Part shown: positions 30,458 to 34,990 of the stretch, in pieces
Numbering within the stretch: the first letter of the stretch is position 1
Layout: every line of letters starts with the position of its first letter
Origin: an uncultured Alphaproteobacteria bacterium
GTDB taxonomy: Bacteria; Pseudomonadota; Alphaproteobacteria; Caulobacterales; Caulobacteraceae
Direction: 5' to 3'
DNA length: 64,000 nucleotides
Assembly: GCA_903909375.1 (NCBI GenBank)
Contig: CAIVVM010000047.1
Coordinates: 1 to 64,000, forward strand
Position numbers and translations under genes: made by a program
Notes under the pieces: generated by a model
The model's input: only the letters and a program-made list of their open reading frames with translations
Told to the model about the DNA's origin: nothing
The model's database searches: none

Positions 30458-30544
30458 GCGGGCGTGGCGGAATCGGTAGACGCAGCGGACTTAAAATCCG
30501 TTTTCGGCAACGAAGTGTCGGTTCAAGTCCGACCGCCCGCACCA
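30458..30544 (+). tRNA. tRNA-Leu (anticodon UAA)
   Basis: An 87-nt class II tRNA with encoded CCA. The acceptor stem GCGGGCG pairs with CGCCCGC, the anticodon loop is CTTAAAA giving anticodon UAA, a long variable arm (TTTTCGGCAACGAAGT) is present as expected for leucine, and the T arm holds GGTTCAAGTCC. The gene downstream on the other strand belongs to a cassette of different base composition; tRNA-Leu genes are common integration sites. Confidence 0.97.
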
Positions 30545-30565
30545 GAAGGCATTGTGAACAATTAA

Positions 30566-30617
30566 ACCTGTCCCCGAATCCTACCCTTTCACCCGACCTG
30601 GGAATCTCGAGACAGGT
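30566..30617. repeat. imperfect inverted repeat ACCTGTCcccgaatcc / gggaatctcgaGACAGGT
   Basis: The arms at 30566-30581 and 30600-30617 match over ACCTGTC/GACAGGT, with further imperfect pairing inside. They lie between tRNA-Leu and the 3' end of rloB. Sequences containing ACCTGTCCCC often flank REP-associated or small transposon remnants in proteobacteria, from memory. A terminator for the rloAB transcript is the other reading. Confidence 0.45.
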
Positions 30618-30625
30618 ATCCACCC

Positions 30626-31282
30626 CTATCTGGCCGGTCTCAGAGACAGCAGCTTTGTCACGACCTCATCGATCGAGGTGTAAAGGTCTTCGTCGTTGTG
30701 ACGACTAAACTGTTCGCGAAGCCGAACAGCGCGTTCCATAGCGACGTTGAGGTTCGATGCAGTGAGCGCGAACACGCCTCTTCGGCCCTTCTCATAGTCT
30801 GCGATATAAGTCTTTAAACGTCCGATGATTGTATGGCGGTCCGCGAAGGCGTGTATCTCTATAAAATGGATTAGGACCCACAGCTCAAAGCATGGGATCG
30901 ACGGAACGGCGAAGAAGGGCACCTTCTTCTTCTCGTCGTTCTTCAATGTCTCATTGAGCCGCCCAGCTTGAGCTAGACCGTCATGGTACGTGTCGTGATC
31001 GTCGCGATCGAAGACTGCATAGACGATGTCGAATTCCCGGCTCTCGCCAAATTTCTCCACCGCATAGTCGACCACTTGCCGGGGCTGCGTTCCGAGTGCG
31101 CTGGGCATGATCTGAACGTGGGCGGTGGGGATGCGAAGTTGTACCCGAATTTCATCGAAATAGTTCGGCTCGGTCTTTTCGCCTTCGCAGACGATCAGCA
31201 CCCGGTCATAGGGTGGCCGCGTCCCCTGTTTTCTCTTGAGTTTCGCCGCTTGGCGATCCCTTGGATGGTTATCACGAGCCAA
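30626..31282 (-). CDS. rloB: RloB/AbiLii-like TOPRIM-type protein (putative phage defence)
   Basis: A 218-residue RloB-family protein. The N-terminal region is basic. TOPRIM-like landmarks follow: the Glu in VLIVCEGEKTEPNYFDEI near residue 32 and the DxD in VYAVFDRDDHDTYHDG near 92. The IPCFELWVLIHF motif near 130 is diagnostic of the family. It starts at TTG 31282, overlapping the ATPase gene by 11 nt, so it is translated from the same mRNA. RloB and lactococcal AbiLii occur with AAA ATPases in phage-resistance pairs. A nuclease effector role is inferred. The gene is less GC-rich than its neighbours. Confidence 0.85.
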   Translation of the reverse strand: MARDNHPRDRQAAKLKRKQGTRPPYDRVLIVCEGEKTEPNYFDEIRVQLRIPTAHVQIMPSALGTQPRQVVDYAVEKFGESREFDIVYAVFDRDDHDTYHDGLAQAGRLNETLKNDEKKKVPFFAVPSIPCFELWVLIHFIEIHAFADRHTIIGRLKTYIADYEKGRRGVFALTASNLNVAMERAVRLREQFSRHNDEDLYTSIDEVVTKLLSLRPAR

Positions 31283-32555
31283 GGTCTACCTTCTCGATGA
31301 GCCGGTTGGGCAGGATGGGCACGCCGCCGTACCTGCCTCTGAGGTAGCCCCGCTCCAATGCCTCACCCTTGCGCGGTGAGAATTCTAGCAGGGGAGTAAG
31401 CGCCGATGACTGGTCGCTCGCTTTGTCAACAAGCCAGACTTGGTCACGACGCAGAACCTCCGCGTCCAATTGGGAAGTGTCGTGGGTACTGAAAATCAGC
31501 TGTGCGCCGCTCGTGTTTACTTCCGGATCGTTGAACACTCGGATGAAGTGACGAACGAGTAGAGCGTGAAGGCTGCGATCCAGCTCATCGACGACAAGAA
31601 CCTTTCCTCTCTGAATGATGTCGAACAAGGGGCCCGCAAGAGAGAAGAGCTTTTGCGTGCCCTGGGACTCATCTTCGAAATCCATGATTGCCGCATCATC
31701 TCCAGCAATGTGCGTGAAGCGTGGCCTAAGGATCTGGACCTCGCTGCGTTCGACGCGAGGTTCGCTCGCAGCGCCAGTCGCGCCATCGATCTTAAAGGTC
31801 GTTTGAAACCCATCCATTTTGTGGACATGGATGTTCGAGATTGCGATGTCGGCTGAAGTAAGAAAACTGCGAATCCGCTTTGCCCATGCGGGGTCTTCGA
31901 GCTTTTGAGTCGAGTAGGTATCCGGGATGTGAGCGCCATCTAGGAAGACGACGAGGTCCTCCGCAAACCAATCATAGAGGGGCCTCAGTTGTTCACTATT
32001 CAATTGGATCGCTACCGATAGGAAGAGCGCATTAGGCCTCGTCGCTTCCTGCCAAACGCGCTTATTACCTTTGAAGCCTGCCCCAAACTTGAACTCGTCA
32101 TGATCCGTCGCACTATCGTACCGACGATCAAACCAGACCTGAGGTTTTGCACTTTGATAGACGAGGAGCCATTCAGCCCAAATTCTCGATGGTGTGGCTT
32201 CAAATCCATATTGGTATCGAATGCCGTCGATGGCGATCGTGGCTTCGAATAGCGTTGGAGAAGCTAAAGTATCCTTCGCTAAACGGAACGGCTGAATGGG
32301 ATGCTGCTGGCTAGGGAGGACCACCGCAGACTGAACCACCATGTTTTGCATCTCGAGTAGGCCGCGCAGCAGGTTCGTTTTGCCACTCGCGTTCGGCCCG
32401 TAGATAGCGGCAGAGCGTGCTACCCGGGGTATGCTGGCGATGCCGGTCGGTGCTGTGTTCTCGTTCAGAAGCAACGTGTCTGCTGAGGCAACGAGCGACA
32501 GGGCGGCTTCATCCCGGAAAGACCGGAAATTCTTGAGCCGAAACTCTATGAGCAT
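31272..32555 (-). CDS. rloA: AAA15-family ATPase (RloA/AbiLi-like, putative phage defence)
   Basis: A 427-residue ATPase of the OLD/RloA/AbiLi type. Walker A is GPNASGKTNLLRG near residue 54, Walker B with catalytic Glu is VLVVDELDRSLHALL near 320, and the H-loop is LIFSTHDTSQLD near 355. The opening MLIEFRLKNFRSFRDEAALSL is the usual SMC/RecF-like beginning. With RloB it forms an ATPase-sensor plus TOPRIM-effector pair, comparable in logic to Gabija, PARIS and AbiL. AAGGCGG precedes ATG 32555. It is transcribed toward tRNA-Leu. Codon choice includes AT-rich codons rare in neighbours, which suggests horizontal acquisition. Confidence 0.88.
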   Translation of the reverse strand: MLIEFRLKNFRSFRDEAALSLVASADTLLLNENTAPTGIASIPRVARSAAIYGPNASGKTNLLRGLLEMQNMVVQSAVVLPSQQHPIQPFRLAKDTLASPTLFEATIAIDGIRYQYGFEATPSRIWAEWLLVYQSAKPQVWFDRRYDSATDHDEFKFGAGFKGNKRVWQEATRPNALFLSVAIQLNSEQLRPLYDWFAEDLVVFLDGAHIPDTYSTQKLEDPAWAKRIRSFLTSADIAISNIHVHKMDGFQTTFKIDGATGAASEPRVERSEVQILRPRFTHIAGDDAAIMDFEDESQGTQKLFSLAGPLFDIIQRGKVLVVDELDRSLHALLVRHFIRVFNDPEVNTSGAQLIFSTHDTSQLDAEVLRRDQVWLVDKASDQSSALTPLLEFSPRKGEALERGYLRGRYGGVPILPNRLIEKVDLGS

Positions 32556-32600
32556 GGGTTACCGCCTTATGTCCGCAAAAAACGCGGAAATTGCGCGAAA

Positions 32601-32606
32601 TGTCAA
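32601..32606 (-). promoter_or_regulatory. possible -35 element of rloAB promoter (TTGACA)
   Basis: A consensus TTGACA on the minus strand lies 46 nt upstream of the rloA start in an AT-rich block. At 17-18 nt distance there is only a T-run (GTTTTT), so the -10 is poor. The inverted repeat AAATTG-N10-CAATTT at 32588-32609 covers the site and could be an operator. Confidence 0.3.
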
Positions 32607-32700
32607 TTTATATCGATCACTGAACTAGGTTAAGACGAAATTTCGCGGGCGGGTCGATCTTAGAGCTTCGCCCTCGGAGCGCTTCGATGACCTTTCGCTC

Positions 32701-32804
32701 AGCCTCAGCCTCAGCCTCAGCCTCAGCCTCAGCCTCAGCCTCAGCCTCAGCCTCAGCCTCAGCCTCAGCCTCAGCCTCAGCCTCAGCCTCAGCCTCAGCC
32801 TCAG
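32701..32804. repeat. hexanucleotide microsatellite (AGCCTC)x17
   Basis: Seventeen exact tandem copies of AGCCTC plus two bases run from 32701 to 32804, with a degenerate copy (TCGCTC) before. The array lies between the stop of the methylmalonyl-CoA mutase large subunit (32846) and the rloAB promoter region. The plus-strand ORF through it would encode poly-Ser-Ala but continues antisense to the mutase, so it is not taken as a gene. The rest of 32556-32845 holds only the AT-rich promoter zone. Confidence 0.97.
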
Positions 32805-32845
32805 TCGCTTCGATTCCTGCGGCAGGTTCAGCGCCCCGCCGCCAG

Positions 32846-34990
32846 CTACTGCGCGTAGCCCAGCTGTTCGTTCAGCCGATCCAGCACGGTGATCGCGGCC
32901 TCCGGGATCACGGTCCCTGGCGTGAAGATCGCGGCAACGCCCATGTCCTCCAGCGCCTTGAAATCCTCCGGCGGGATGACGCCGCCCACGAACACCAGGA
33001 TGTCGGGGCGTCCCAGGCGGGCGAGCTCGGATTTCAGTTCCGGCACCAGCGTCAGGTGTCCGGCGGCGAGCGAGCTGGCGCCGACCGCGTGAACCCCGGC
33101 TTCGACGGCCTCTGCCGCCGCTTCGGCGGGGGTCTGGAACAGGTCGCCGATCTCCACTTCGAAGCCCAGGTCGCCGAAGCCGGACGCGATCACCTTCTGA
33201 CCCCGGTCGTGGCCGTCCTGGCCCATCTTGGCCACCATAAGGCGGGGTTTGCGGCCGTCGGATTGTTCAAAGGCCGCAGCCATGGCGCGGGCGCGGTCTG
33301 AAGCGGGCGTGGCGCCAGCCTCGCGCAAGTAGACACCCTTGACGGCGTCGGCTGTGGCCTTGTGGCGGTTGAACACCTTTTCCAGGGCGAACGAGATCTC
33401 GCCAACCGTGGCCATCGCCCGGGCGGCATTGACCGAGAGTTCCAGCAGATTGCCATTGCCGGCCGCGCCAGCGGTCAGCGCGTCCAGTGCGGCGGCCACG
33501 GCCTCGGGGTCGCGGTCACGTTTCAGGCGCTTCAGCTTTTCAAGCTGGGCGTTGCGAACGGCGGTGTTGTCGACCTTCATAACGGGGATGTCGTCGGCCA
33601 CGTCAGGCCTGTACCGATTTACCCCTACGACTGACTGCTGCCCGGAATCGATCCGGGCCTGGGTGCGGGCGGACGCTTCCTCGATCCGGCGTTTTGGCAG
33701 GCCGTTCTCGATCGCCCTGGCCATCCCGCCCAGCGCCTCGACTTCGGCGATGTGGGTCAGCGCGCGTTCAGCAAGGTCGGCGGTCAGGCGCTCGACATAG
33801 AAGCTGCCGCCCCAGGGGTCGACGACCCGGTTCTGGCCGCTTTCCAGTTGCAGGAAGAGCTGGGTGTTGCGGCTGATCCGGGCGGAAAAGTCGGTGGGTA
33901 GCGCCAGGGCTTCGTCCAGCGAGTTGGTGTGCAGGCTCTGGGTCTGGCCACCGACGGCCGCCATGGCCTCCACGGTGGTGCGAGCGACATTGTTGTAGAC
34001 GTCCTGCGCCGCCAGGCTCCAGCCGCTGGTCTGGGTGTGGGCGCGCAAAGAGAGGGAGCGCGCATCCTTCGGGTCGAACTCGGCCTTCATCAGCTTGGCC
34101 CACAGCAGGCGCGCGGCGCGTTGCTTGGCGATCTCCATGAAGGCGTTCATGCCGGCGTTCCAGAAGAACGACAGCCGGGGGGCGAACTGGTCCACGGTCA
34201 TGCCCGCCGCGACGCCCGCACGGACATAGTCGATGCCGTCGGCCAGGGTGTAGGCCAGCTCCAGGTCCAGCGTCGCGCCGGCTTCCTGCATGTGATAGCC
34301 GCTGATCGAGATCGAGTTGAAGCGCGGCATTTCGCGGGCCGTATAGGCAAAGATGTCGGACACAATCCGCATCGAGGGGCCTGGCGGATATATGTAGGTG
34401 TTCCGGGTCAGGAACTCCTTCAGGATATCGTTCTGGATGGTGCCCGAGAGCTTCTCGTGCGGCACGCCCTGTTCCTCGGCGGCCACGATGTAGAGCGCCA
34501 GGATCGGCAGCACGGCGCCGTTCATGGTCATCGACACGCTCATCTTGTCGAGCGGGATGCCGTCGAACAGGGTGCGCATGTCGAGGATGCTGTCGATGGC
34601 CACGCCGGCCATGCCCACGTCGCCCGCCACGCGGGGGTGGTCTGAGTCATAGCCCCTGTGGGTGGCCAGATCGAAGGCGATCGACAGACCCATCTGGCCC
34701 GCCGCCAGGTTGCGCCGATAGAAGGCGTTGCTGTCCTCCGCCGTGGAAAATCCGGCGTACTGGCGGATCGTCCAGGGGTTGGTGGCGTACATGGTGGGGT
34801 AGGGGCCGCGCACGAACGGCGCCAGTCCCGGATAGCCGCCCATGGCTGCCAGGCCGGTGATGTCGGCCGCGGCATAGGCTGGGCGGACGGCAATACCCTC
34901 CGGGGTATTCCAGGCATCGGCCTCCGGCGGTGAGGTCGGCGTGGCAGGGCCCTCGAAAGGCAGGGTCGCGAAATCCGGGAACGCGCTCAT
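32846..34990 (-). CDS. scpA: methylmalonyl-CoA mutase, large (catalytic) subunit
   Basis: A 714-residue adenosylcobalamin enzyme interconverting (R)-methylmalonyl-CoA and succinyl-CoA in propionate breakdown. The N-terminal TIM-barrel holds [27 protein letters not shown]-type sequence near 65 and RTHxQTSGW-like [11 protein letters not shown] near 335. The C-terminal cobalamin domain holds [10 protein letters not shown] near 600, with the His that replaces the dimethylbenzimidazole ligand, and [10 protein letters not shown] further on. It overlaps the small-subunit gene by 4 nt (ATGA), so the two are coupled. No cobalamin riboswitch is seen upstream. Confidence 0.97.

Follow-up and report, generated by a model that had tools for sequence, protein, structure and literature searches.

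A probably working, acquired AbiL (RloAB) gene pair at a rearranged tRNA-Leu–mutA site, and a promoter palindrome in part of its family

Two AT-rich genes are the only ones between tRNA-Leu(UAA) and mutA in a 64,000-nucleotide stretch of Caulobacteraceae DNA (the whole of which we call the window). Do they form a phage-defence module, did they come from elsewhere, and does the tRNA gene beside them belong to their story, as an earlier note made from the sequence had proposed? That AbiL acts by abortive infection has been known since 1999. It is a two-gene system directed against phages (PMC3985639).

The features of the locus are collected in Table 1. rloB lies directly 3′ of rloA in the same operon, a layout that is identical in the relatives; the two frames overlap by 11 nt, and 81 nt separate rloB from tRNA-Leu(UAA). 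RloB matches PF13707 in Pfam (E=1.4e-34) and AbiLii in PADLOC (E=4e-25), and AbiLi is the top PADLOC profile of all for RloA (E=3e-92, 307 bits). The earlier note was therefore right in describing an overlapping ATPase and RloB pair of RloAB/AbiL-like type next to this tRNA gene, coordinates included, and the PADLOC search that it suggested calls the pair AbiLi plus AbiLii. Its label of an AAA15 ATPase held for the ATPase part, but AAA_15 is the weaker Pfam match (6e-8) and AAA_21 the stronger (PF13304, E=2.9e-30). The families are consistent throughout: the AbiLi profile is matched by 52 of 52 RloA homologues and PF13707 by 46 of 46 RloB homologues, rloA is immediately 5′ of rloB in nearly every RloB locus, and in a search of the phylum RloB adjoins 29 of 30 RloA loci, the window's own counted. 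Gene identity and the coupling of the pair are thus direct observations.

Table 1 Features of the tRNA-Leu–mutA interval and its flanks (positions in the window).
Feature	Position	Strand	Remarks
tRNA-Leu(UAA)	30458-30544	+	ARAGORN
rloB (AbiLii-type)	30626-31282	-	218 aa, TTG start; predicted TOPRIM-like nuclease
rloA (AbiLi-type)	31272-32555	-	427 aa; ABC/OLD-type ATPase
Second dyad TCCGC-GTTTTTT-GCGGA	32572-32588	-	overlaps the partial palindrome; spacer 7
Partial palindrome CGCG-CAATTTC-CGCG	32583-32597	-	aligned with the perfect copy of L136, the nearest relative
TTGACA, possible -35 of the rloA promoter	32601-32606	-	aligns with TTGGCT in L136
Hexanucleotide array (CTCAGC) x17.8, perfect	32698-32804	.	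between rloA and mutA
mutA	32846-34990		other flank of the rloAB interval

Both frames are full length, with every invariant residue present and the catalytic motifs intact. RloA has all ABC ATPase motifs (Walker A G53-x-N55-xx-G58-K59, signature S297/G299, Walker B D323-E324 and H-loop H358) and RloB keeps the acidic residues E33, D92 and E133; in both proteins these are conserved across distant relatives, and D94 of RloB is present in most relatives. The AlphaFold model of RloA (pLDDT 92.1) finds Rad50/SMC/PtuA/OLD heads with Foldseek. In the AlphaFold model of RloB (pLDDT 90.6), E33 follows strand 1 and D92 stands at the end of strand 3, and the beta/alpha order and the placement of these two residues are compatible with TOPRIM. 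Foldseek with the RloB model gave no significant TOPRIM structure, and local hhalign comparisons of the RloB profile with OLD-TOPRIM and DUF4435 were not significant. A published HHpred analysis relates RloB to OLD_TOPRIM (PMC10440598).

The pair has the lowest GC among the window's predicted genes (0.545 and 0.549 versus 0.61–0.72), and its GC3 (0.64 and 0.62) contrasts with at least 0.70 in the remaining predicted genes, which bears out the AT-richness noted earlier. No relative of either protein was found in 100 other genomes of the genus, and the neighbour mutA was matched in 96 of the 100 congener genomes searched. Of 385 genomes of the class, 18 have RloB, and these are spread across 18 genera. 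The nearest RloA relatives (47–61%) are on plasmids and phage-like contigs; the closest match is a phage-classified metagenome contig (RloA 61%, RloB 55%), and rhizobial plasmid relatives reach about 50–53% for RloA and 42–48% for RloB. On viral contigs a single RloA protein query gave no match, and an alignment query was needed to find relatives. Some relatives sit on conjugative or mobilizable plasmids, a 3.9-kb E. coli plasmid has only rloA, rloB and rop annotated, and the pair is also carried by a Klebsiella P2-like phage and by a Lactococcus phage, in which both genes are annotated ‘abortive phage resistance’. The mobility of the relatives and the absence from sister species are observed directly. 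On the grounds of the absence from 100 congeners, the low GC and the plasmid and prophage relatives, the rloAB pair is horizontally acquired, as had been claimed; the picture named as speaking against this, the same locus in all relatives with core-like composition, is not what the congeners and the GC show. Elsewhere, a related pair (L106 and L113, G135 C76; RloA 46%) has rloB split in two frames and is probably a broken copy.

What, then, of the tRNA gene? Homology to the congeners ends at about 30545-30546, at the tRNA 3′ end, and tRNA-Leu(UAA) is the last piece shared with the closest relatives; past it the sequences diverge. However, the tRNA 3′ end has no second copy, there is no att direct repeat, no direct repeats flank rloAB, and at none of the RloAB loci scanned does a tRNA lie within 1 kb of rloA and rloB. 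The 2.3-kb tRNA–mutA interval contains no integrase, as the earlier note had said. We therefore reject a tRNA-integrated island, and given the missing att repeat and the lack of a tRNA within 1 kb at the RloAB loci scanned, the tRNA gene is best seen as incidental and not as a functional part of the module, contrary to the role that the note gave it. On one phage-classified contig (L156:4238-4599), a tmRNA gene lies just downstream of an RloA gene.

The earlier note had also suggested looking for an empty site in relatives. The closest relative (G004, mutA 94%) does have the interval without rloAB, but the site is not empty: tRNA and mutA are 10.1 kb apart and the space is filled with metabolic genes, named by inspection as acyl-CoA dehydrogenase, MerR, a D-aminoacylase-like hydrolase, thiolase and others. 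The gene order that G004 has in this interval also stands between tRNA-Leu and mutA in two further genomes, G014 and G098, and in part in G006. In the window's own genome (G000) most of the block is on another contig, upstream of what look like ddl, ftsQ and ftsA (C5:124754-133381, L085, compared with L035:4354-14518); the block's acyl-CoA dehydrogenase and PHB-depolymerase-like gene were not found with this relocated copy. The tRNA–mutA site is thus a rearrangement point, from which the block has departed and where rloAB now stands, although a misjoin in the draft assembly may be an alternative source of the arrangement. The same interval holds a (CTCAGC) array that the earlier note did not mention, 143–249 nt upstream of rloA and 41 nt downstream of mutA. 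Nowhere else in the genome do four or more units follow one another, and the 100 congeners have one four-unit run between them; its length could vary between strains.

Reading the DNA upstream of rloA at about 100 loci revealed an odd-centred palindrome, TTTTTGnn-N7-nnCAAAAA, in many relatives. In 89 upstream regions, a set filtered for shared 8-mers so that kinship is thinned, with counts that take no account of phylogeny, TTGxx-N-x'x'CAA is found in 16 with a spacer of 7 and in no more than two at each of the other spacers between 1 and 14, and TGxx-N-x'x'CA in 29 at spacer 7 and in 0–4 at the other spacers; these counts are descriptive, given that the pattern was first seen in those very loci. 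The inner dinucleotides are of at least six types (CG, CA, AC, GA, GT and TG), each with its matching complement. Odd-centred dyads with all eight pairs number 13 in the 89 regions against 0.4 expected from shuffling, and even-centred ones 1 against 0.5. Such all-eight-pair palindromes are found in 13 of the 87 RloA upstream regions that are 100 nt or longer, in 0 of 75 AT-rich control upstreams and in 3 of 425 other upstreams of the same loci. A further 65 regions were held out and gathered only once the pattern had been settled; there too spacer 7 was the commonest, with 3 occurrences where the mean is 0.4 and 8 where it is 1.5 (Poisson 0.007 and 0.0002). The recurrence is weaker, which indicates that only some members of the family have the element. 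In a genome group of the same phylum (L362–L386), which has RloA relatives beside RloB and often two to four RloA-like genes per genome, it is mostly absent. The half-site type tracks RloA relatedness (permutation p=0.003, 17 loci), an association that common descent alone could explain.

In most clear copies the palindrome is centred about 30–46 nt upstream of the start codon, in some 52–88 nt, and in the window's nearest relatives it stands just 3′ of a TTGA-like -35. The L136 copy, TTTTTGCG-CATTTTC-CGCAAAAA, is perfect, and the 3.9-kb E. coli plasmid also has a palindrome in rloA promoter position. The window's copy is degenerate, with the spacer of 7 kept and the outer T/A pairs lost, and the dyad that overlaps it has 7 of 8 pairs over its wider span; a consensus scan of the rloA promoter found no complete sigma-70 site. 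Of 54 exact matches to two palindrome versions in IMG/VR, the five at rloA are all source contigs of the pattern or a close copy, so the motif alone is not specific. We found no description of the element in the literature searched, mostly outside subscription journals.

As a terminator the palindrome was rejected, since on inspection a T-tract precedes and an A-tract follows the stem on both strands, and an RNA hairpin is disfavoured by the enrichment being limited to odd-centred dyads. The loop of an RNA hairpin has no odd/even parity constraint; a strictly odd parity is thus better explained by a DNA site to which a symmetric protein binds. Its presence on a plasmid with only rloA, rloB and rop annotated suggests that RloA, RloB or a host protein would be the binder. 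It is possible, if doubtful, that the palindrome is an operator common to AbiL/RloAB operons of many phages, plasmids and genomes, with inner bases that differ by lineage yet remain complementary, and that it is bound by RloA or RloB, so that the pair represses itself and is derepressed on infection, and it could then serve as the on/off switch of the pair.

By analogy with known systems, we consider it likely that the locus is an intact, acquired AbiL (RloAB) abortive-infection operon in which RloA restrains RloB until a phage trigger arrives. The ATPase would assemble a complex that keeps RloB inactive; a phage trigger would alter RloA and so release or activate RloB, and this TOPRIM-like nuclease would then cut a vital nucleic acid, whereupon the infected cell stops phage production. 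We infer the sensor/effector split and abortive infection from PARIS and AbiL. In PARIS, a TOPRIM tRNase is kept in check by an ATPase hexamer, and the binding of a phage protein ends this restraint (PMC12409363). Fusobacterium AbiLii is toxic in E. coli, but in a direct test its toxicity was not neutralised by AbiLi, which counts against the restraint model (PMC3985639).

The same parts could also make a toxin–antitoxin or addiction module of mobile elements, with RloB as toxin, RloA as its restraint and phage defence as a secondary effect. AAA/TOPRIM_OLD pairs behave as toxin–antitoxin pairs (PMC10440598), relatives are found on very small plasmids such as the 3.9-kb one, and many have the operator-like promoter palindrome. 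However, the window pair is chromosomal, no plasmid genes stand in the surrounding interval and the Lactococcus relative carries an abortive phage resistance annotation, so we regard this explanation as unlikely. It is improbable that the pair is a restriction-modification accessory that guards against anti-restriction: even though the original setting of the Rlo genes is that of the ‘R-linked ORF’ and some rhizobial plasmid relatives adjoin DNA methyltransferase or type ISP R-M genes, the tRNA–mutA interval has no R-M gene and many relatives lack an R-M neighbour. A degraded or silent remnant would fit the loss of the outer palindrome arms and the incomplete promoter in the consensus scan, but the full-length frames with all invariant residues make it very improbable.

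The module is real, acquired and probably working, an ordinary example of the known AbiL/RloAB kind. The cassette is one more acquired chromosomal AbiL copy; what the analysis adds is rather the rearranged site and the promoter palindrome that some of the family have in common. The palindrome offers a concrete handle on the control of part of the AbiL family and points to the possibility that such defence genes have a built-in switch.

Among the known systems, Septu (PtuA/PtuB) and type I-A retrons have an ATPase head related to that of RloA in Foldseek, but rloAB has no HNH partner or reverse transcriptase. Gabija (GajA/GajB) and other OLD classes combine an OLD-type ATPase with TOPRIM chemistry, whereas here the TOPRIM part is a separate protein, and the tRNA–mutA interval holds no ATPase–TOPRIM fusion and no helicase partner. 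PARIS (AriA/AriB) likewise has separate genes for an OLD-type ATPase and a TOPRIM-type nuclease, but RloB belongs to PF13707 and not to DUF4435 (PF14491, the AriB test for that family, matches neither RloB nor any of the 46 homologues), and RloA scores 307 bits with AbiLi versus 104 with AriA. Hence, the pair is AbiL-like and belongs neither to PARIS nor to Gabija, which the earlier note had listed as related. Although the lactococcal proPhi7 pair is distant (RloA 28%) and the window copy lies in the chromosome and has no plasmid, phage or R-M gene as an immediate neighbour, the pair shares with AbiL of Lactococcus the order of ATPase then RloB, the same profile families and the overlapping or nearly overlapping frames.
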